DNA of 36,132 nucleotides, from IMG/VR virus record IMGVR_UViG_3300037189_004092, positions 1 to 36,132 of that record. One strand, given 5' to 3'. The stretch comes from a virus. A program made the translations under genes and the position numbers. Below are positions 2,397-35,268 of this stretch, piece after piece. The first letter of the stretch is position 1; every line of letters begins with the position of its first letter. The notes beneath the pieces were generated by a model. That model saw only the letters and a list, made by a program, of their open reading frames with translations. It did not search any database and was not told the DNA's origin.

Positions 2397-3856
2397 CACA
2401 GGCCTCCGTAGTTCACCATCAGGTAGCCGTTGGCGTGCCGCTTGACCAGGTCAGGGCGCACGCGCTCCACCTCTTGTGCAATCACACCGCGTTGCGGCAT
2501 TCCCATCATTGTGTAGTCGTAAATGCCCACGCCGATCGCGTGCGTGCCCACCCGCTTGATGTTGGACTTCAGGCGACGATCAGAGAACATGAACGCGGCC
2601 GAGCCTAGCTGCGCGCCGGCTCCCAGCAAGTTGCCAAACGCAGCGTTTTGCGCATTGGCAGCGCCCAGCGCGGCGTCGTAGCCCATCTGCGTGGCGCCCA
2701 GGATGTTGGGCGTCTCCGCGCGCTGAGCGGCCGCGAACGACGGCATCTGCGGCATGCTCACCTGCTGCCCCGACAGCAGCGCGTTCATCTCGTTGAGAGA
2801 CATGCCGCGGCGCTGCATCTGCTCGGCGATCGCCTGCTGGCGCAGACGGTTGCGTGAATCAGCAAACTGCTGGTTCAGGCCGTACTGCTGAGCGGCCGCT
2901 TGGTTTTGCGCCTGCATGCGTGCCAGATCCAACGCGGAGGCCTGACCAAGCGCTTGGTTCTGAAACTGAGCCGCGCCCAGGTTTTGGTTGTATTCCTGGC
3001 CGATCGCCTGGTTGCGGAACTGACCTGCCTGCAGCCCTTGGTTGAATGCCTGGTTGGCGGCTTGGTTGGTGAAGTTGCCGCCGGTGACGTCCTCGTTGAA
3101 CGCCTGCTGGCGAGAGCCCATTTGCATGCCGAACAAGCGCTGGGCCTCGTTGCCGGCCATGTCCAGCGCGTTGAAGCGCTCATTGGCCTGCCGTTGCTGA
3201 AGCTCGTTTAGCGCGCGGTTGTAGGCCTCGCTTCCGACCGTGAAACCTTGGTTGGCTAGACGCGTCTCAAGCTGCTGCTGCTGGTAGTTGTGCGTCGGCT
3301 GCATGCGCTGCATCAACTGGTCAGCAACTCGGTCCCGATAGCCGCTGTCAATCTGCGGCAAGTTGGGGTTGTCGCCCGTGTTCAGGCCCCGCTGCAAAGA
3401 CTCGGTCTGGACGTTGCCCTGCGGACCACCAAACCCGAACGCAGTGCTGATCCCCGGCGTGTAGTCGGTCGCGCGCGTCTGCAGGTTTCCAACCGCATTG
3501 GCCTCGGTCATCTGCGGCAGGCTGGCAAAGTCAAACGGGCGCGCATATTCACTGGACACACGATCCATGAACCCGCTAGCCAACCGCGAGCGGTCGTTCT
3601 GCAGCCCTATCTGCGCATCAAGAGCGCTTTGAAGGCCAGGCGCCAGTGTGTTGTTCTGGGTCCATTGCGTGACCGACTGCCCCGTCGCGGGATCAGTGGT
3701 CGCAGACGTGTTCCAGGACTGCGAACCGAACGGCGTGTTGATCGACGGCCGGTTAGCAAAATTCTGGATATTGGTCAGCTCCTTCGAAGCTGCCGCCTGC
3801 TGCTGCGCAGCGCCCAAATAGTCAGGTGCTGCTGGTGCTCGACCTTTGCCGCCCAT
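2396..3856 (-). CDS. Gln/Asn-rich tail or internal virion protein with C-terminal S74 chaperone domain
   Basis: The product is 486 residues, starting MGGKGRAP; AGGAG precedes this ATG and supports it over an upstream in-frame start. The body is a long Gln/Asn/Ala-rich region with tandem AFNQGLQAGQFRNQA-like units (roughly residues 250-330), likely fibrous. The last 62 residues begin SDRRLKSNIKRVG and contain GVIAQEVERVRPD, the signature of the peptidase S74 intramolecular chaperone, which in endosialidases and tail spikes helps trimerise and then cuts itself off before the Ser-Asp. This copy is short, ending soon after the conserved block. The gene overlaps the upstream acetyltransferase gene by 35 bases. 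Confidence 0.75.
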   Translation of the reverse strand: MGGKGRAPAAPDYLGAAQQQAAASKELTNIQNFANRPSINTPFGSQSWNTSATTDPATGQSVTQWTQNNTLAPGLQSALDAQIGLQNDRSRLASGFMDRVSSEYARPFDFASLPQMTEANAVGNLQTRATDYTPGISTAFGFGGPQGNVQTESLQRGLNTGDNPNLPQIDSGYRDRVADQLMQRMQPTHNYQQQQLETRLANQGFTVGSEAYNRALNELQQRQANERFNALDMAGNEAQRLFGMQMGSRQQAFNEDVTGGNFTNQAANQAFNQGLQAGQFRNQAIGQEYNQNLGAAQFQNQALGQASALDLARMQAQNQAAAQQYGLNQQFADSRNRLRQQAIAEQMQRRGMSLNEMNALLSGQQVSMPQMPSFAAAQRAETPNILGATQMGYDAALGAANAQNAAFGNLLGAGAQLGSAAFMFSDRRLKSNIKRVGTHAIGVGIYDYTMMGMPQRGVIAQEVERVRPDLVKRHANGYLMVNYGGL

Positions 3857-4262
3857 GAGCGTTCTCCTTGATCCAGCGGCACTCGTCGTGCCGCATTTCA
3901 AACATTACGCAGTCAATCGTCTCAGCGATCCTGCGGAATCCCAATTTGTCATTCATCCGCAGCGCTTCGTCGAGGTTCTTGGGCGTCAAGCCGTAGATGG
4001 CCTCCATGCCGCATTTTACGAATGGATAGTCAAAGGCCGCGCGCCAAAGGCGCCGATTGAGGCCATGCGGGCCGTCAAACGCAACGTGAATCCAGCAGGC
4101 CGACATCGTCCAGGCATTGAACGCGACCGCGCTCGAGATCGTCCCGTCGTCTCTCATGGATGCGATCGTGCGCAGGTCGCTGCTCCACGGCAGCCGCGTG
4201 CGCTTGTTCATCCATTCCCAGACGACGGGGTACTCGCCGGGCTGATCGGTCACGAGCTTCAT
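3822..4262 (-). CDS. GNAT-fold acetyltransferase-like protein
   Basis: The product is 146 residues, starting MKLVTDQPG; the ATG overlaps the upstream stop as ATGA. The pattern is that of phage GNAT proteins: a central strand region (WIHVAFDGPHGLNRRLWRAAFDY), a helix, and the typical closing motif NLDEALRMNDKLGFRRIAET followed by a strand (CVMFEMRHDECRW). GNAT enzymes transfer an acyl group from acyl-CoA to an amine; the substrate here cannot be told. The classic Q/RxxGxG/A pyrophosphate loop is not obvious, so activity is uncertain. It sits among virion genes and overlaps the next gene by 35 bases, implying co-expression late in infection. Confidence 0.65.
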   Translation of the reverse strand: MKLVTDQPGEYPVVWEWMNKRTRLPWSSDLRTIASMRDDGTISSAVAFNAWTMSACWIHVAFDGPHGLNRRLWRAAFDYPFVKCGMEAIYGLTPKNLDEALRMNDKLGFRRIAETIDCVMFEMRHDECRWIKENAHGRQRSSTSST

Positions 4263-5959
4263 TGGTGCGCAAACTCCGTGTCGCCGAACTTTTCCTGCAG
4301 CTTATTCTCAGCTTGCTTTGCAAACGCCAGCAGATCCAACTCGTCGATCAGTTGGTTGACGTCGATGATCTCCTCGCGCACAGGGTCCTGGTCCGACATC
4401 AGCACGCCGAAGCTGTACTGATCGCTTTGCAAGTCGGCGCCATTAACGTCATTGACGCTGCCAAGCGAGTCGGCGGCATCAATGTCGGAGTCCAGCACAC
4501 CAAACGTGTACTGATCGCTGTCCAGGTCGGCGCCGTTAACGTCCGAGCTGTACTGATCGCTGTCCAGGTCGGCGCCGTTAACGTCGTCAGATGAGCCGGC
4601 GTCGTCCACGTCATCCATCAGAACGCCAAAGCTGTACTGGTCGCTATCCAAGTCTGCGCCGTTGACGTCATCCACGCTTCCAAGCGTGTCGTCGTCCATG
4701 TCAGACAAAAGCACACCAAATGTATCGTCCGTGTCGGTATCGTCCGTCTGACTATCATTCGCGGACGCAGGAGCAGGAGCAGGCGCAGGCGAGGTAAAGG
4801 TTGGCGGCGGGGGCGCCGTCACCGGAGCCGGAGCCGGAGCCGGGGCTACCGGCGCGGGGGCGGGAGCCGTTGGCGCGGGAGCCGGCGCTGTCGGTGCAGG
4901 TGCTGGCGCCACAGGGGCTGGCGCTACAGGAGCCGGGGCTGGTACTGGCAGCGTCGGCAGCGCGCCATTATTAGAGTTGGAGTACACCGTGAAGCCGGGG
5001 TTGTTAAAGCCTGCCGGTGATGCGTCACGCAACGACCTAATCAAAGAACTTTGATACTGCGCAGGTGCAGCCAAGTTGCCCGATGCGCGGCCCTCGGTGG
5101 TGCTTGTCAAAAATGCCGCAGGCGCGTTAGGAGTCGGCGAAGTTGGTCGCGTGGTCGCCGGGGGCGTTGATGTGGGCACGGTTGTGGCGGTAGCGCCGCC
5201 CGTACTGAGGGCGTTTCGATACGCCTGATTAAGCTGATCTCTTGTGGTTTGGTTGCCGGTCGCATACTGGCGAGCAGCCGCCGCCTGGTATTCGGGAGAA
5301 TTCAGCAGCTGCTGACGAATTTGGTCGACCGAGAACCTAGAGCCTCCATAAAACTGCAGCCCATCCTTGTCTGCATCTCGGCCAAAAACTTCTCTGTACA
5401 GCGCGTTAATTTGGTCAGGCGTAGCAGGCGTGCCGGTAGCGTACTGGCGCGCCTGCATACCCTTGAGCTCTGGCGACTTGAGCAGCTGCTCGGCGATCTG
5501 ATCTGCAGAAAAGTCCGATGCGTCGTAAAACTGTAGGCCTTCCTTGTCAATCGGCCGCTCAAACACAGTTTGATACAGCTGCTCAATCTCCTGTTGTGTA
5601 GCGGGTGTGCCGGTTGCGTACTGGCGCGCTTGGATGCCCTGCATCTCGGGCGAGCTGCGCAAGTTGTTTCTGATCTGGTCAACAGAAAAGTCGCTGTTGT
5701 CATAGAAGTCCAGGCCAGCTGCATCTGCGGCGCGACCAAACGTTTCGAGGTACAGGCTGTTGATCTCGTCTCGCGTCGCCGGCCTGCCCGTGGCGCTTGC
5801 ACGCGCCCGCACCGATTCGGCCTCCGGCGAGTTGCGGATGTCGTTCTCAATCAACTCTAGCGAGAAGTCTGGGTTTGAATAAAACTGAAGGCCGCCAGCA
5901 TCTGGCTCTCGGCCAAGATACCGCTGATACAGCGCTGAAATCTCTGCTGCAGTTGCCAT
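4259..5959 (-). CDS. DUF4214-repeat protein with proline-rich stalk and acidic C-terminal repeats
   Basis: The product is 566 residues. ATG at 5959 overlaps the upstream stop by one base (TGATG). It has three zones. Residues 1-240 are four tandem units of about 59 residues, each with the pattern (I)xxLYxxxFGRxxDxxGLxFY..FSxDQI...L..SPE, recognised as DUF4214. After a Thr/Pro/Ser linker, residues about 340-395 are PAPAP/VAPAP repeats. Residues about 400-535 are acidic repeats around DVNGADLDSDQYSFGVL, followed by a short helical tail. DUF4214 occurs in secreted bacterial proteins; in a phage virion module it suggests an adhesin-like tail or decoration protein. The role is inferred. Confidence 0.8.
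   Translation of the reverse strand: MATAAEISALYQRYLGREPDAGGLQFYSNPDFSLELIENDIRNSPEAESVRARASATGRPATRDEINSLYLETFGRAADAAGLDFYDNSDFSVDQIRNNLRSSPEMQGIQARQYATGTPATQQEIEQLYQTVFERPIDKEGLQFYDASDFSADQIAEQLLKSPELKGMQARQYATGTPATPDQINALYREVFGRDADKDGLQFYGGSRFSVDQIRQQLLNSPEYQAAAARQYATGNQTTRDQLNQAYRNALSTGGATATTVPTSTPPATTRPTSPTPNAPAAFLTSTTEGRASGNLAAPAQYQSSLIRSLRDASPAGFNNPGFTVYSNSNNGALPTLPVPAPAPVAPAPVAPAPAPTAPAPAPTAPAPAPVAPAPAPAPVTAPPPPTFTSPAPAPAPASANDSQTDDTDTDDTFGVLLSDMDDDTLGSVDDVNGADLDSDQYSFGVLMDDVDDAGSSDDVNGADLDSDQYSSDVNGADLDSDQYTFGVLDSDIDAADSLGSVNDVNGADLQSDQYSFGVLMSDQDPVREEIIDVNQLIDELDLLAFAKQAENKLQEKFGDTEFAHQ
4385..4740 (-). repeat. Acidic tandem repeats in DUF4214 protein
   Basis: The DNA repeats a block of about 39 bases containing gtactgatcgctgtccag and gcgccgttaacgtc. 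It encodes four copies of DVNGADL(D/Q)SDQY, three of them followed by (S/T)FGVL and an aspartate-rich spacer. One unit is shortened and lacks FGVL, so copies lie close together near 4510-4590. Near-identity at DNA level indicates recent expansion or slippage. Confidence 0.85.
5240..5953 (-). repeat. Four tandem DUF4214 units
   Basis: Four consecutive units of about 59 codons, each ending in a (Q)YATGxxAT-type linker before the next unit. Units 2-4 are more alike than unit 1. A fifth, broken start (RDQLNQAYRNAL) follows unit 4, suggesting loss of further units. Confidence 0.8.
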
Positions 5960-7572
5960 CACATCACCCCACCCAATTCAGTCAACATGTGCGCCGACGT
6001 GAAAACCGTCTGCGGCAGGCCACGCACCTTCATGCGCAGCGACCCGTAGTAACCAAGGCCAGCCGAGCCGGCCCAGGCCTGATATGTGTTCTGTCCCGTC
6101 CAGGTAGCCTGGTTCCACGTCGCCGTGTCCCACAGGCCGGGATCGGCCTCAAAGTAAAAAGGCGAGCCGCCAGGCGACGAGAACTGAAACTGCGTGTTGA
6201 CCGACACCTTGACCGCTGGCGGCGCCAGCGCAATGAAGATGGGCCGAACCATGCCGAACTTCTTGTTCTGCGCCGGCGTGCCAAAGTGCGAGAACGCGGT
6301 CTGCACATCACCCTCGACGTAGTTGCCGCCGGCGCCAACCGTGTCGACGCCGTCGCGGTCGCCGAACAGACCCTTGCAGGTAAACCCGTCCTCGGTGCCG
6401 AAGTAGAGCTGGCCACCGATTACCGTCGCGCAGCGCATCGGCATGCCGACAAACTCACACCAGGCGCCGGTGGTCACGTTCATCGCAAATTGGCGATACG
6501 TGCCGCCGTCGTTTGGCAGCTTGATCACCAGCACCTCGCTCGATGGCACCACGAACACGTTGAAGTAACGGTTGTTGCGCAGCCTGCGCACCAAGGGCGC
6601 AAACACCGACTGAATCTTCGATGCCGGGCCGCCGGCCTGCACATCCTGCGAATACTGGCCAGTGATCAGGCGCGACATCGGCACCAGGCCGAGCTCGCTG
6701 ACGATCATCACGTCGCCGCCGAACGGGGTGAAGTAGGTGCCGAACTTAGGCACAGGGCCGACGTACCAGACGCCCTTGAGGTTGAACGTCGTGGCGCTAG
6801 TCGGGTCGGTGCCCTCCCACACGGCCACATCACCCTCGGTGCCGACCGCCACCAGGAAGTCGTCCACGCTGAATCCGGCGTCGATCGTCCAGTTGAACAG
6901 CGCTGAAACCGAGCCGCCGTTACGCAGGATCGAGCCCATGGGGAACGACGTCACGGTTCCCGTGATCGCGTCCACGTTGTCCATGTAGGCCACATTAGGG
7001 CTGCCGTCGAAAGTGAACCAGACGCGCCGTTTCCACACGGCCACCGTGCGCACCGACGTCGTCATCCCCGTCACGGTGCCCGTGCGGTTGACCCAGCCGG
7101 AAGTCGTGCTGTAGGTCCAGTACCCGGCGCCAGGCGAGACGGCCAACAGGAACGTGTCAGCGGCCGTCGAGAACTGCGTCGTCCACCAGTCATCGTTGGA
7201 GCTGCCAGTGGCAGTCACTGCAAGCACTGGGGCGCCGCCAGCCGTCACGTCGTAGATGTTGCCGTTGGCGGCCATGAACACCTTGTTGTTGGCCGAGTTG
7301 GGCGCGGTGTAGCTGAAGATCGAGTCGACAGCCTGCGGCACGCTGGCCACGGTGACCGCGGTGGCGTAAGCCTGCCAACCTTTGCGCAGCTCGCACCCCT
7401 GCTGACGCGGGATCATGTTGGTCAAGACAAGCGCATCTTGAGGCGCCATCGCCGAGATGGGGTCGCGGTAGTTCAATCCGCCCGTCGGTGCGGGGATCAC
7501 GTTGGACTGCGCCACCTGAGCGGCGGCAGCCCTTCGCGGCACCTTGAAGGGCTTGACTGGCACCAACGGCAT
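5959..7572 (-). CDS. Tail tubular protein B-like / phage stabilisation protein
   Basis: The product is 537 residues, starting MPLVPVKP three bases after the upstream stop with a G-rich ribosome site. The N-terminal block (APTGGLNYRDPISAMAPQDA, then NMIPRQQGCELRKGW) is the usual opening of the long beta-rich nozzle or stabilisation proteins of short-tailed phages (T7 gp12-like or P22 gp10-like role). The rest is mostly beta-strand with many Gly, Trp and Thr residues and no catalytic motif. It follows a putative gp11-like connector, the order expected for a short tail nozzle. The subclass is inferred. Confidence 0.75.
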   Translation of the reverse strand: MPLVPVKPFKVPRRAAAAQVAQSNVIPAPTGGLNYRDPISAMAPQDALVLTNMIPRQQGCELRKGWQAYATAVTVASVPQAVDSIFSYTAPNSANNKVFMAANGNIYDVTAGGAPVLAVTATGSSNDDWWTTQFSTAADTFLLAVSPGAGYWTYSTTSGWVNRTGTVTGMTTSVRTVAVWKRRVWFTFDGSPNVAYMDNVDAITGTVTSFPMGSILRNGGSVSALFNWTIDAGFSVDDFLVAVGTEGDVAVWEGTDPTSATTFNLKGVWYVGPVPKFGTYFTPFGGDVMIVSELGLVPMSRLITGQYSQDVQAGGPASKIQSVFAPLVRRLRNNRYFNVFVVPSSEVLVIKLPNDGGTYRQFAMNVTTGAWCEFVGMPMRCATVIGGQLYFGTEDGFTCKGLFGDRDGVDTVGAGGNYVEGDVQTAFSHFGTPAQNKKFGMVRPIFIALAPPAVKVSVNTQFQFSSPGGSPFYFEADPGLWDTATWNQATWTGQNTYQAWAGSAGLGYYGSLRMKVRGLPQTVFTSAHMLTELGGVM

Positions 7573-30742: not shown

Positions 30743-32662
30743 TTATGCGATGGCGAGGAAGATGTAGGTGCCGCCGTTTGCGTTCAACCCCGCCGGGGCT
30801 GCTGCGGTTACTTGGAACCCCACACTGGTGGTGTCAACGTAGTTGGTGCCCGTGACTTCCGCTGCCGTGGTGTTCAAGAAAAGGTAGGGGTCGTTGCCGC
30901 TGCTGATGCCCCGCGCAGAGTCGTAGACAAACCAGTCACCCGCGCTGTCCGTGCGCTTAATCAAAACGAACCGAGTGCCGCCTGTGAAGCCGCAGTTGAC
31001 AGTCTGTAACGCGCCAGTGCCGGTGTATGAGCCTACCTTGCTTACACCGGCGACGGTGGCAAAAAGATAGGCAACAAACGTATACGAACTGCTGTTCACG
31101 CCGTCAGCCGTACCTACCGTAAACACACTAGACGTTGGCGTTGTGTTGTTCCAAAACTGGGATGCAGTTATAGGCGCTTGGTCATTGTTTAAAGTTACAG
31201 CCCGGGTATTACCGAGCGAAGAATGATAGGTGATCCAACTCTCAAAACCGGTGCGCGCCTTCACAATCATCATTTCAGGCACAGCACCCAAATTGTGCGA
31301 CAGGGTTCTATTGGCGCCGTTCCCCGTATAGCAAACCTCATCAAAGAAGCCGGGGGCGCGGCGGAAGTTCCAGTAGATACCAGAACCGCTTCCTGATAGG
31401 TAACCGTCTTGGTTGTATCCCGTATTACTCCACGCCAATGTTCTGAAATTCAAAGCCGTTGATTCAGCGGCAGTGTTTGTGGATGTTAAATAGTTTGCCA
31501 CCTCTGTAGAGGTGCTGCTTACGCCGCGAAGTCGATCAGAGAACCCAAAGTTTGGGGTGAGGCCGGGGCGATACCCGGCTATTTGCAGATCAGGCGGAAA
31601 GTTCGTCGTTACCGTCGTGCCAGTTGTGGTGGCAGACAAGTTAGGACTAAACACACTCGTCCCCGTCGTCGGAGTTTTCATCGGGCCGCGACGGATGGCG
31701 ATGTAGATGTGTGTTGCTGATCCGTCATGACCGGCGATTTCAAAGCCGGTGGCGGTTGGAGAACAGTAATCTGAGTTTGTGATTTCAGCCGCACTACTAT
31801 TTGCCTGCAACAAGGCATCATTCTGACCGGCGGTCGTCATACCGCGCATCGTGTCAAACATTCTCCATGCACTCGTGCCGGAAGAATTCTTGGTCATCAC
31901 CCACTGTGGTTCATAGCCCAACGTAACGCTTGCCACGCCACCGCTATCAGTCGTAAACGACCCACACGAAATCACATTGTCCGTACCCGTCAGGCCAAAG
32001 CCTCCTGCGTCGTGGGCGAAGATGTAGGCGACGTAGGTTTGGCCGTTTTCGTTTACTGCGGCAGAACTTCCGAGCGTGAATTGAGTGCTCGTCGGTGTTG
32101 TGTTGCTCCAATATCCAGAAGCAAGAAAAGAAGCAGCGGTGTCGTTAAGCAAAAGCGCCCTACCGCTTCCTTCGCTTCTGTGATAAACAGGCCAACCCTG
32201 TCCGCTTGCGCTTGTTTGTTTAATGATAATGCAGCCGGGGACAGCGCCAAGATTGTGAGCAACAGTTCTCCCCGCAGTTCCATTCCCCGTATACGTCACC
32301 ACATCAAAGAACTTCGGCTGCTTGCGGAATGTCCATGAGGCGAATGTCTGACCTGAGTTGTTTGGATTGTTCGCTGTGTTTAGACTGAATCCGCTGCTTG
32401 TGAACGCCACTCGATTAAGTAACGACTGTGCTGACGTTTGATCCGTAGCCAACCAATATTCTGGCCCTCTCGCGGAATCTTGCAGGCTGTGAGAAGAAGT
32501 GTTGCTTCGGCCTTTGTTCCAAACCAACCCGCCCTTACCCGCCAGATCAATCCCGTTGGTGATGGTCTGCGTAGAGCCGTTGCCGGTGTAGAGCCACGTC
32601 GAGAACACGTCCTCGATGTAGGTCGCGTCCCCGCTGACTGCTGATGTGTTTGAGCTAAACAT
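30743..32662 (-). CDS. Repeat-rich tail adhesin-like protein
   Basis: The product is 639 residues from ATG 32662 with GAGGTG upstream. It is beta-rich and made of internally repeated units: YTGNG(S/T/A) starts, HNLGAVPxxIIxK(Q/A) cores and W(S/N)NTTPTS(T/S)xF(T)xG segments recur, and YxFVAYLFA-like strands recur. The group is one of the DUF-type phage tail proteins. It looks less GC-rich than its neighbours, as expected for an exchanged receptor-binding module. It sits between the tail fibre and its chaperone. Confidence 0.75.
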   Translation of the reverse strand: MFSSNTSAVSGDATYIEDVFSTWLYTGNGSTQTITNGIDLAGKGGLVWNKGRSNTSSHSLQDSARGPEYWLATDQTSAQSLLNRVAFTSSGFSLNTANNPNNSGQTFASWTFRKQPKFFDVVTYTGNGTAGRTVAHNLGAVPGCIIIKQTSASGQGWPVYHRSEGSGRALLLNDTAASFLASGYWSNTTPTSTQFTLGSSAAVNENGQTYVAYIFAHDAGGFGLTGTDNVISCGSFTTDSGGVASVTLGYEPQWVMTKNSSGTSAWRMFDTMRGMTTAGQNDALLQANSSAAEITNSDYCSPTATGFEIAGHDGSATHIYIAIRRGPMKTPTTGTSVFSPNLSATTTGTTVTTNFPPDLQIAGYRPGLTPNFGFSDRLRGVSSTSTEVANYLTSTNTAAESTALNFRTLAWSNTGYNQDGYLSGSGSGIYWNFRRAPGFFDEVCYTGNGANRTLSHNLGAVPEMMIVKARTGFESWITYHSSLGNTRAVTLNNDQAPITASQFWNNTTPTSSVFTVGTADGVNSSSYTFVAYLFATVAGVSKVGSYTGTGALQTVNCGFTGGTRFVLIKRTDSAGDWFVYDSARGISSGNDPYLFLNTTAAEVTGTNYVDTTSVGFQVTAAAPAGLNANGGTYIFLAIA

Positions 32663-32670
32663 CAGTCACC

Positions 32671-35268
32671 TCACACCGTGTAGTTCTTGCCAGCGTCGGA
32701 GCCGTACCAGTTGGTGCCGTCTGACGTAAAGATGTACTTGTCGAGCTTGGACGCCGTCGACGTGATCGTCGGCGCCGTGCCGCCTGGCCACTTCACCGCC
32801 GCCGGCCACGTTACCGTGCGCGAGCCGGTGCCGTCTTGCTTGAGCAGCAGGATGAAGCTCTCGCCGGCCACCGCAGTCGGGAACGTGAACGTGCAGTTGC
32901 CCGTCAGCGTCAGGATCTGCACAGTGCCGTTTGCCGTGTTGATGGTGTACGCGGTGCCGGTGTTGGCCGTGACGACGGCCTCTTTGTAGTCGCTCGCCAG
33001 CGTCAGCGTGCCGGCCTGCGTGATTCGCAGCCGCTCAGTCGGCCCAGACGCGCCGTCAGGGGTCGTGCCGAACACAAGATCGGCCGGCATGTCGTTGGAG
33101 CCAGGTACGGCGCTGACGACAGCATTGATGAACGCGCCCTGCAGGTAGTTCGTGCCGTCAAAGCCCCGGAACACCAGGTTGCCCAGCACGTCGCCGTTTT
33201 GCACCACCGCGCCGTTGCGGTTCTTCTCTAGCACCACGTAGGAGGCGTTGCCGTCTGCGGTGGTGTTCCGCTGCACGAGCTGCGGATAGAACCCGCTGTT
33301 GGACACCAGCGCGATGCCGGCCGACGTCACGTTGTCAGGCGTCGTCGTGCCAATCCCCATCACGCCGGTGGACGACACCACGAACGGTGTGGCGTCTGAC
33401 GCCACATCCTCGATGTACAGCGCGTTGCCCGAGCCCGTCTGCGTGATCTTCAGCGCGTCTGCCGACGTGTTGGCCGTGATCGTCTGGTTGGCCGTGAAGG
33501 TGTTGGCAGACGTGAGCGCCGCGTAGCCCGCTGCCGGCAGGTACGCAGCCACCCAAGCCGAACCGTTGTAGATCCGCGTCTCGTTGGCCACCGTGTTGAA
33601 GTACAGGTCGCCAGCAGTCACCGGGTTGCCGTTGCCGTCGACCGTGGGGTCAGACGACAGCGGGCCCAGGTACTGAGCGCGGAAGTTGAATAGCGCGGTG
33701 GACGCGGTGCTGGCCGAGCTAGAGGCGCTGGACGCGCTGGACGACGCGCTGGACGCGCTGGAGCTCGCCGACGATGCGCTCGCGGCCGCTGCAGCAGCAG
33801 ACGCAGCTGCCGACGTCGTCGAACCGAAGATCGTGTCGATGTAGTTCTTGGTCGCGCCGTCCTGGGCATTCACCGGGTCACCCATGCCGGTGATTCGGTT
33901 GGTGCCCATGGCCAGGGCGCCCGACATCGTGCCGCCGGTCAGCGAGAGCTTGCCAGCCAACAGCGTGTCAGTGGCGGTCGTGGTGTAGGCGTCGGTGATG
34001 CCGTAGCCGGCCAGCGTCGTAGGGTTGGTGCCCGTCGTGACGCGGCCCCACTGGTCGACAGTCACCGAGCGGAAGGTGCCCGCCGAGACGCCGGTGGTCG
34101 CCAGGTCGATCTCGTCAGCGCCCACGACGATGCGCGAGCTCGAGGCCGTGTTCACGTTCAGCGTGTTGCCGGTCTTGGTCATGCCGGTGCCGGCAATGAC
34201 CTGACCAGCACCAGAGAACTGCTCAAAGGTGACAGCAGTCACGCCAAGCGTGCCACCAGGCGCCACCGCGCAGACCCAGCCGGTGTTGTCGTTGGTGGTG
34301 CCGTCCTCGATGAACGTGAACGCGCCGACCAGCTCGTCCCAGGTGTTGGCGTCCGCAGCGCGCGACCAGGTGCTCACGGCCGCGACATAGATGCCGTTCT
34401 CGGCGGCGCTGGACTGGTTCTTCACCAGCACCCGGTCGCCAGCAATCACGGCCACGCCGTCGATCGTTTGCGTGCCCGACAGCGTGATGTTGGCGGTGGT
34501 CGCCGCGCGGCATGATGCCTTGATGTCCAGGCCCTGCGCCACGCCGTCCACGTAGGCCTTGGTGGCCGCATCCTGATCCGCAGTCGGCGTGCCCAAGCCG
34601 GTGATCTTGTTGGACCCCATGGCGATCGCGCCAGACATGGTACCGCCCGACAGCGCCAGGCGCAGCGCGTCCTGCGTGTCGACGTAGCCCTTGTTGGCCG
34701 CGTCGCTGGCGTTGGTCGGGGTGCTCAGGCCGGTAATGGTGGCAGAGCTGCCCACCGCCATGTCCAGCGAGCCGTTGATCACCACGTCGTTGAACGTCGA
34801 GGTGCCGCTGGCCGCCGTGACGTTGCCAGTAACTCCACCAGTTGCGGTAAAAGCACCAGTCACGACAAGGCTAGACGCGAAGGTGGCCGCGCCGGTGACG
34901 CCGAACGTGCCGGCCACCAGCGCATTGCCCAGCGCGTTCAGGGTGCGCGCTGCAGGGATGGTCACCGATGTGGTGTTCATCTGCAGCGTGTTCACGCCCA
35001 GGATCGAGAACGCGACCGAGCCGGCGCCCACACGGTAGTAGCCGGTGTTGGTTTCGTTGAGGAACGACAAGCCAGGCGCGGTGACGGTGCCGTCCGCGAC
35101 GCGGAACGGCGCCAACATGCCACCCGCGCCCGTGCGCGACAGCGAGTTGGTCAGCTCGTTGGAGATGTCCTGCAGCGTCGAGTTGGCCCACGCCGCGTCG
35201 ATTGTGGTGCCCGGCACGACCGGGTTGCCTGCGGGTAGCGTGTAGACGCCGGAACTGTTGCGGGGCAT
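32671..35268 (-). CDS. Tail fibre protein
   Basis: The product is 865 residues from ATG 35268 with GGGAGA upstream. The N-terminus (LPAGNPVVPGTTIDAAWANS) is the usual fibre attachment opening. The middle has several LSGGTMSGAIAMGSNKITGL-type repeats with QDAATKAYVD segments, common in phage fibre shafts. A run of Ala/Ser repeats (ASSASSSASSASSS) near residue 500 is a flexible or coiled linker. The C-terminal 250 residues form the tip, ending in a beta-rich domain. It binds the host receptor. Confidence 0.85.
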   Translation of the reverse strand: MPRNSSGVYTLPAGNPVVPGTTIDAAWANSTLQDISNELTNSLSRTGAGGMLAPFRVADGTVTAPGLSFLNETNTGYYRVGAGSVAFSILGVNTLQMNTTSVTIPAARTLNALGNALVAGTFGVTGAATFASSLVVTGAFTATGGVTGNVTAASGTSTFNDVVINGSLDMAVGSSATITGLSTPTNASDAANKGYVDTQDALRLALSGGTMSGAIAMGSNKITGLGTPTADQDAATKAYVDGVAQGLDIKASCRAATTANITLSGTQTIDGVAVIAGDRVLVKNQSSAAENGIYVAAVSTWSRAADANTWDELVGAFTFIEDGTTNDNTGWVCAVAPGGTLGVTAVTFEQFSGAGQVIAGTGMTKTGNTLNVNTASSSRIVVGADEIDLATTGVSAGTFRSVTVDQWGRVTTGTNPTTLAGYGITDAYTTTATDTLLAGKLSLTGGTMSGALAMGTNRITGMGDPVNAQDGATKNYIDTIFGSTTSAAASAAAAAASASSASSSASSASSSASSASSSASTASTALFNFRAQYLGPLSSDPTVDGNGNPVTAGDLYFNTVANETRIYNGSAWVAAYLPAAGYAALTSANTFTANQTITANTSADALKITQTGSGNALYIEDVASDATPFVVSSTGVMGIGTTTPDNVTSAGIALVSNSGFYPQLVQRNTTADGNASYVVLEKNRNGAVVQNGDVLGNLVFRGFDGTNYLQGAFINAVVSAVPGSNDMPADLVFGTTPDGASGPTERLRITQAGTLTLASDYKEAVVTANTGTAYTINTANGTVQILTLTGNCTFTFPTAVAGESFILLLKQDGTGSRTVTWPAAVKWPGGTAPTITSTASKLDKYIFTSDGTNWYGSDAGKNYTV

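Follow-up and report, generated by a model that had tools for sequence, protein, structure and literature searches.

A 566-residue protein of unusual make-up is encoded in the tail operon of an uncultivated phage, between two genes that lie next or almost next to each other in isolated relatives, and we asked what such a protein might do there. The DNA analysed (the window) is the whole 36,132-base virus record IMGVR_UViG_3300037189_004092. An ejection-protein ORF of 616 residues, resembling the 615-aa homolog of locus L012, runs in frame across positions 1 and 36132 with no base missing, so that the record probably represents an entire, circular genome. The phage is an uncultivated short-tailed phage (podophage) of the Mx8 lineage, with a major head protein related to the Mx8 one. 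Two large fibre-like genes at 30743-35268 (DUF7483, tail fibre and head decoration PHROGs) probably encode its main host-binding proteins.

Gene neighbourhood and architecture of the protein

The gene lies between a gene for a P22 gp10-like nozzle protein and one for a GNAT-fold protein homologous to P22 gp14, a position referred to here as the slot; an S74 structural protein and the ejection proteins follow downstream. The start and stop codons of the slot gene overlap the gp10-like and GNAT genes, respectively. From this place in the operon it is plausible that the product is a virion protein, as the initial annotation of the sequence had proposed. PHROGs labels the family of the 5959-7572 product "amidase", a label that looks wrong, since context and the phiGT1 paper point to a nozzle protein. 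The S74 gene and the end of the GNAT gene share tens of bases, read in different frames (window 3822-3901; likewise in L008, L010 and L011). The slot is empty in Mx8, Mx9, BUCT555, RHph_N2, pCB2047-A, phiGT1, ctMlz233 and Mwe-JY13, where little or nothing separates the gp10-like gene from the GNAT gene.

From N- to C-terminus, the protein consists of four DUF4214 units, a linker, a 34-residue motif, a PAPAP stretch, an acidic zone and a helical tail (Table 1). The units, the proline stalk and four aspartate-rich repeats, one of them shortened, had been described in the initial annotation and were recovered here. Pfam PF13946 (DUF4214) matched with E=4.8e-19 and 68.6 bits against a gathering score of 23.2, and a six-frame search placed all four DUF4214 sites of the genome in this ORF. 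The units begin near residues 3, 62, 121 and 180 with an exact period of 59, and a half unit follows near residue 239. Pairwise, they share 42-62% of amino acids and only 52-60% of DNA positions, and are thus old duplications. The acidic repeats, DVNGADL[DQ]SDQY[ST], start at residues 431, 459, 473 and 504, with FGVL missing from the second copy; they are 82-95% identical in DNA, a closeness noted earlier, and are therefore young. Residues 400-541 comprise 39 D, 3 E, no K and 1 R. In the AlphaFold2 model, residues 1-235 are helical (pLDDT mostly 75-91), residues 250-541 are disordered except for a short helix at 303-312 within the motif, and helices return at 534-565. Two features go beyond the earlier description: the motif, at residues 299-332, and the helix conserved at the C-terminus.

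Table 1 Features of the slot gene and its neighbours in the window
Feature	Position	Strand	Evidence
P22 gp10-like nozzle / head-closure protein, presumed docking partner	5959..7572	-	phrog_5107 E=3e-91; phiGT1 tubeB / P22 gp10 homolog
GNAT-fold P22 gp14 / IVPA-like protein, other slot boundary	3822..4262	-	phrog_4470
Slot gene, modular acidic protein, 566 aa	4259..5959	-	ORF; 85 distinct homologous-slot proteins; dN/dS
DUF4214 unit 1	5792..5950	-	Pfam, six-frame search, unit comparison; helical in AlphaFold2 model
DUF4214 unit 2	5615..5773	-	Pfam, six-frame search, unit comparison
DUF4214 unit 3	5438..5596	-	Six-frame search, unit comparison
DUF4214 unit 4	5261..5419	-	Six-frame search, unit comparison; half unit then at 5204-5242
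Putative docking motif PAQYQSSLIRSLRDASPAGFNNPGFTVYSNSNNG, conserved, 34 residues (299-332)	4964..5065	-	Pattern counts, model helix, IMG/VR pattern matches
PAPAP proline-rich stalk, residues ~335-398	4766..4957	-	Sequence; disordered in model
Acidic disordered zone, residues 400-541, repeats ending near 524	4388..4762	-	Composition and model
Acidic repeat 1 DVNGADLDSDQYSFGVL	4619..4669	-	Repeat comparison
Acidic repeat 2, shortened, without FGVL	4547..4585	-	Repeat comparison
Acidic repeat 3	4493..4543	-	Repeat comparison
Acidic repeat 4	4400..4450	-	Repeat comparison
C-terminal helical tail DPVREEI...EFAHQ	4262..4387	-	Kept in acidic-repeat relatives; model helices 534-565

The earlier suggestion that the acidic repeats recall calcium-binding loops found no support: at EF-hand positions 5 and 6 they carry A and D. 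No EF-hand or dockerin profile was found in them even at E<=10, and a Pfam search found no RTX nonapeptides (GGxGxDxux, PF00353) in the window protein.

Conserved motif and exchanged modules in uncultivated relatives

With the gp10-like protein and the GNAT protein as queries, IMG/VR yielded 138 loci with both genes, several loci coming from one contig, and 85 distinct slot proteins of 122-673 residues. With few exceptions they are acidic, with a median pI of 4.05 and a maximum of 5.2, and 84 of the 85 contain no cysteine. The slot start overlaps gp10 by 1 nt in 72 and the slot stop overlaps GNAT by 4 nt in 55, overlaps which show that the gene is tightly embedded in the tail operon.

The modules are diverse: DUF4214 (6 of 72 proteins scanned), UBA-like, RTX and PT repeats, and further QKADY helical, YESYQQGF, DYTDDLW, DDFVGP and VTVEEL repeats. 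DYTDDLW repeats occur in 19 proteins (L137-L169 group), and several different repeat types have a hydrophobic or aromatic core flanked by acidic residues. RTX nonapeptides (GGTGNDTI; GGxGNDT) are present in L157:4795-5997 and L138:1223-2428; PF00353 matches one family member with E=2.4e-15, identifying a true calcium-binding RTX module in L157. A GEFVLNKDAAKAIG-type tail, weakly matching the C-termini of tape-measure proteins, ends the slot proteins L090:7593-8738 and L049:4739-5761.

The slot protein is covered by no described phage family: no Pfam or PHROG family spans these proteins, and PHROGs gives only weak module-level matches. Sequence searches of the PDB returned only low-complexity or non-significant matches, and the fold of the QKADY repeats (L114) had no convincing PDB match. 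When the protein, one relative and the motif consensus were compared with 50,697 phage records by tblastn, there was no true match and no isolated phage carrying a slot protein was found; Dickeya matches at E~0.1 lie in large phages. Bacterial genomes searched for a host contained only five distant relatives (26-34%), and our literature search found no DUF4214 paper on a phage protein of this kind.

Against this diversity, every one of the 85 proteins has retained the motif YxSxLIxxLRxxS...NPGxxxxxN or a close variant of it. Its core L[IV]xx[LI]R is found in 80, compared with a mean of 0.8 and a maximum of 4 after shuffling, and the remaining five have close variants. The motif lies within the first 20 residues in 36 proteins and behind an N-terminal module in 44. 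A scan of the whole IMG/VR collection with a DNA pattern for the motif, strict enough that its hits are a sample rather than a census, found 19 loci, all 19 directly downstream of a gp10-like gene. In loci that lack a slot gene, the motif was found nowhere else in the DNA examined. Because it is conserved while everything else is freely exchanged, we regard it as a putative docking peptide; the pattern is most simply read as a docking peptide with interchangeable cargo. Its constant neighbours, gp10 and GNAT, would be natural partners, and linkage favours gp10. In a coevolution analysis, gp10 columns conserved in slot-bearing phages were not consistently altered in slot-lacking ones, and the changes that accompany slot loss fell inside the range of long-branch slot-bearing controls; the analysis gave no sign of coevolution, and gp10 is the presumed partner.

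Around the motif, whole modules have been swapped between phages whose neighbouring genes are almost the same. Between the window and L114, gp10 and GNAT are 96% and 97% identical and the slot proteins 38% (of the longer protein); the N-terminal module differs, and the motif, acidic repeats and tail are common to both. L115 and L124 share 97% of gp10 and 14% of the slot protein. There, DNA similarity ends within about six codons of the slot start and returns after the stop. Repeats inside modules also vary in number, which bears out a proposal of the initial annotation: L118 and L119, which have the same gp10 and GNAT proteins, are distinguished in the slot by a single acidic repeat of 28 residues.

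Wholesale swapping also affects the ejection protein (~600 aa) and the 375-aa protein preceding it (L008-L012; in the window, 1000-2040 and the gene that spans its ends). In most pairs the ejection protein is 23-30% identical, even where gp10 is 96-99% identical. Slot type showed no link to ejection-protein type.

Close pairs of the same type gave dN/dS values mostly of 0.04-0.20, some of 0.3-0.5, and 0.8 for L128/L129, two sequences that hardly differ. Of the close pairs whose differences are informative, most thus indicate purifying selection on the slot gene. A fast-drifting, low-complexity protein with little function would fit the disorder, the repetitiveness and the length range, but such selection, together with the conserved motif, already disfavours drift, which we consider very improbable.

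The gp10 tree, a quick tree with approximate supports, has one clade characterised by the slot gene, within which the gene was lost at least three times. It is dispensable for the lineage, as several members and every isolated relative examined do without it. Dispensability would also suit a non-virion late protein, such as an assembly factor or a moron expressed from the tail operon, and phages commonly carry hypervariable accessory genes. For a moron, however, constant linkage of the motif to gp10 and codon overlap on both sides would be unusual, and we judge this origin distinctly improbable.

Comparison with tail needles and fold relatives

In P22, the tail needle gene gp26 follows gp10. 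The slot gene occupies the corresponding position, between gp10-like and gp14-like genes, as in P22, Sf6 and HS1, and a functional replacement of the needle, plugging the nozzle after packaging and leaving on infection, has to be considered. P22-like needles retain the N-terminal domain that binds the virion and exchange the distal domain (PMC3741392), a logic similar to that of the slot proteins and a further point for such a replacement. The slot protein differs in having no coiled-coil trimer, in a motif that is often internal, and in modules that are disordered or made of helical repeats. The slot-protein models show short helical units and disorder, with no long helix and no long trimeric coiled-coil shaft. 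Moreover, relatives without the gene exist in at least three lineages and include all isolated ones examined, which argues against an essential plug in the slot. By the features tested, the slot protein would not be a needle and at most shares a similar way of working; we regard replacement of the needle as improbable.

Receptor-binding proteins of phages with swapped distal modules likewise keep an anchor and exchange the rest, but there the anchor is a folded N-terminal domain and in the slot proteins a short peptide. No β-structured fibre or enzymatic domain was detected in the slot protein. With bacterial DUF4214 proteins (PF13946) it has four genuine units in common, which here form one interchangeable module of a phage protein.

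The initial annotation had likened the overall design to a bacterial surface adhesin. This remains plausible as a general likeness, and the fold comparisons give it weak leads. The top Foldseek match of the model, the N-terminal domain of the Caulobacter S-layer protein RsaA (PDB 6t72), was non-significant (E=0.028), with a VIA Z of 3.6 over 45 residues at 11% identity. Both are helical; in RsaA this domain binds the LPS O-antigen through Ca2+ and aspartates (PMC6978808). The likeness is weak and would not by itself prove relation or function. Single DUF4214 units resemble halves of phycobilisome linkers (PF00427; ApcE, CpcC) with Z of 4-5 (up to 5.1) and rmsd of 2.1-2.8 Å over 53-54 residues; the best sequence match was non-significant (E 0.26), and the biology of these linkers is unrelated. 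Together, the two matches may hint at a surface-binding or protein-linking rod.

Possible roles of the slot protein

We tentatively favour an accessory binding protein presented on the tail, docked by the motif and encoded in an exchangeable cassette that sits where P22 has its tail needle gene. The motif would form a docking helix with the conserved gp10-like nozzle, or else the GNAT protein encoded beside the slot, as its binding partner; any cassette that carries the motif could then be shown at the tail tip. The N-terminal DUF4214 array may act as a folded binding rod, probably for a host surface glycan or protein, and the proline and acidic part, flexible and strongly negative, may serve as a spacer or as a multivalent ligand. 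Exchange and repeat-number variation would then let the phage change what it touches while the nozzle stays unchanged.

Several points weigh against tail display, the coevolution result for gp10 among them. The fold matches are weak; having a fold in common would not establish function. Given the separate tail fibres at 30743-35268, host recognition does not need the slot protein, and wholesale exchange is not confined to surface proteins, as the ejection proteins of these phages also undergo it.

This last point also favours a protein carried inside the virion and ejected together with the DNA. The motif would then serve as a packaging signal, while the acidic, hypervariable modules would act in the periplasm or cytoplasm, for example against defence systems. 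The next downstream gene is IVPA/gp14-like and is followed by the ejection proteins, these phages also exchange their ejection protein and 375-aa protein, and the slot proteins are very acidic and cysteine-free. On the other hand, their modules include DUF4214 and RTX, and RTX requires extracellular-level calcium to fold. Strongly acidic, disordered chains would also be unlikely beside packed DNA. Finally, slot type reassorts freely with ejection-protein type, an independence expected if the slot protein docks on the conserved nozzle. An ejected protein appears rather unlikely, although it ranks next after tail display.

A more specific form of the tail-display reading is possible, though we hold it with some doubt: that Mx8-lineage podophages possess a tail display site of their own, at which the SLIxxLR...NPG helix fixes unrelated, mostly disordered acidic proteins to the gp10 nozzle, with cassettes traded at codon precision and repeat number as a second, faster dial. 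Docking specifically predicts that the motif peptide binds gp10. If the motif does dock on the nozzle, it would be a minimal tag for interchangeable tail modules in short-tailed phages, apart from their fibres, and would account for a large group of acidic, hypervariable proteins that stand unannotated in the genomes of uncultivated phages.
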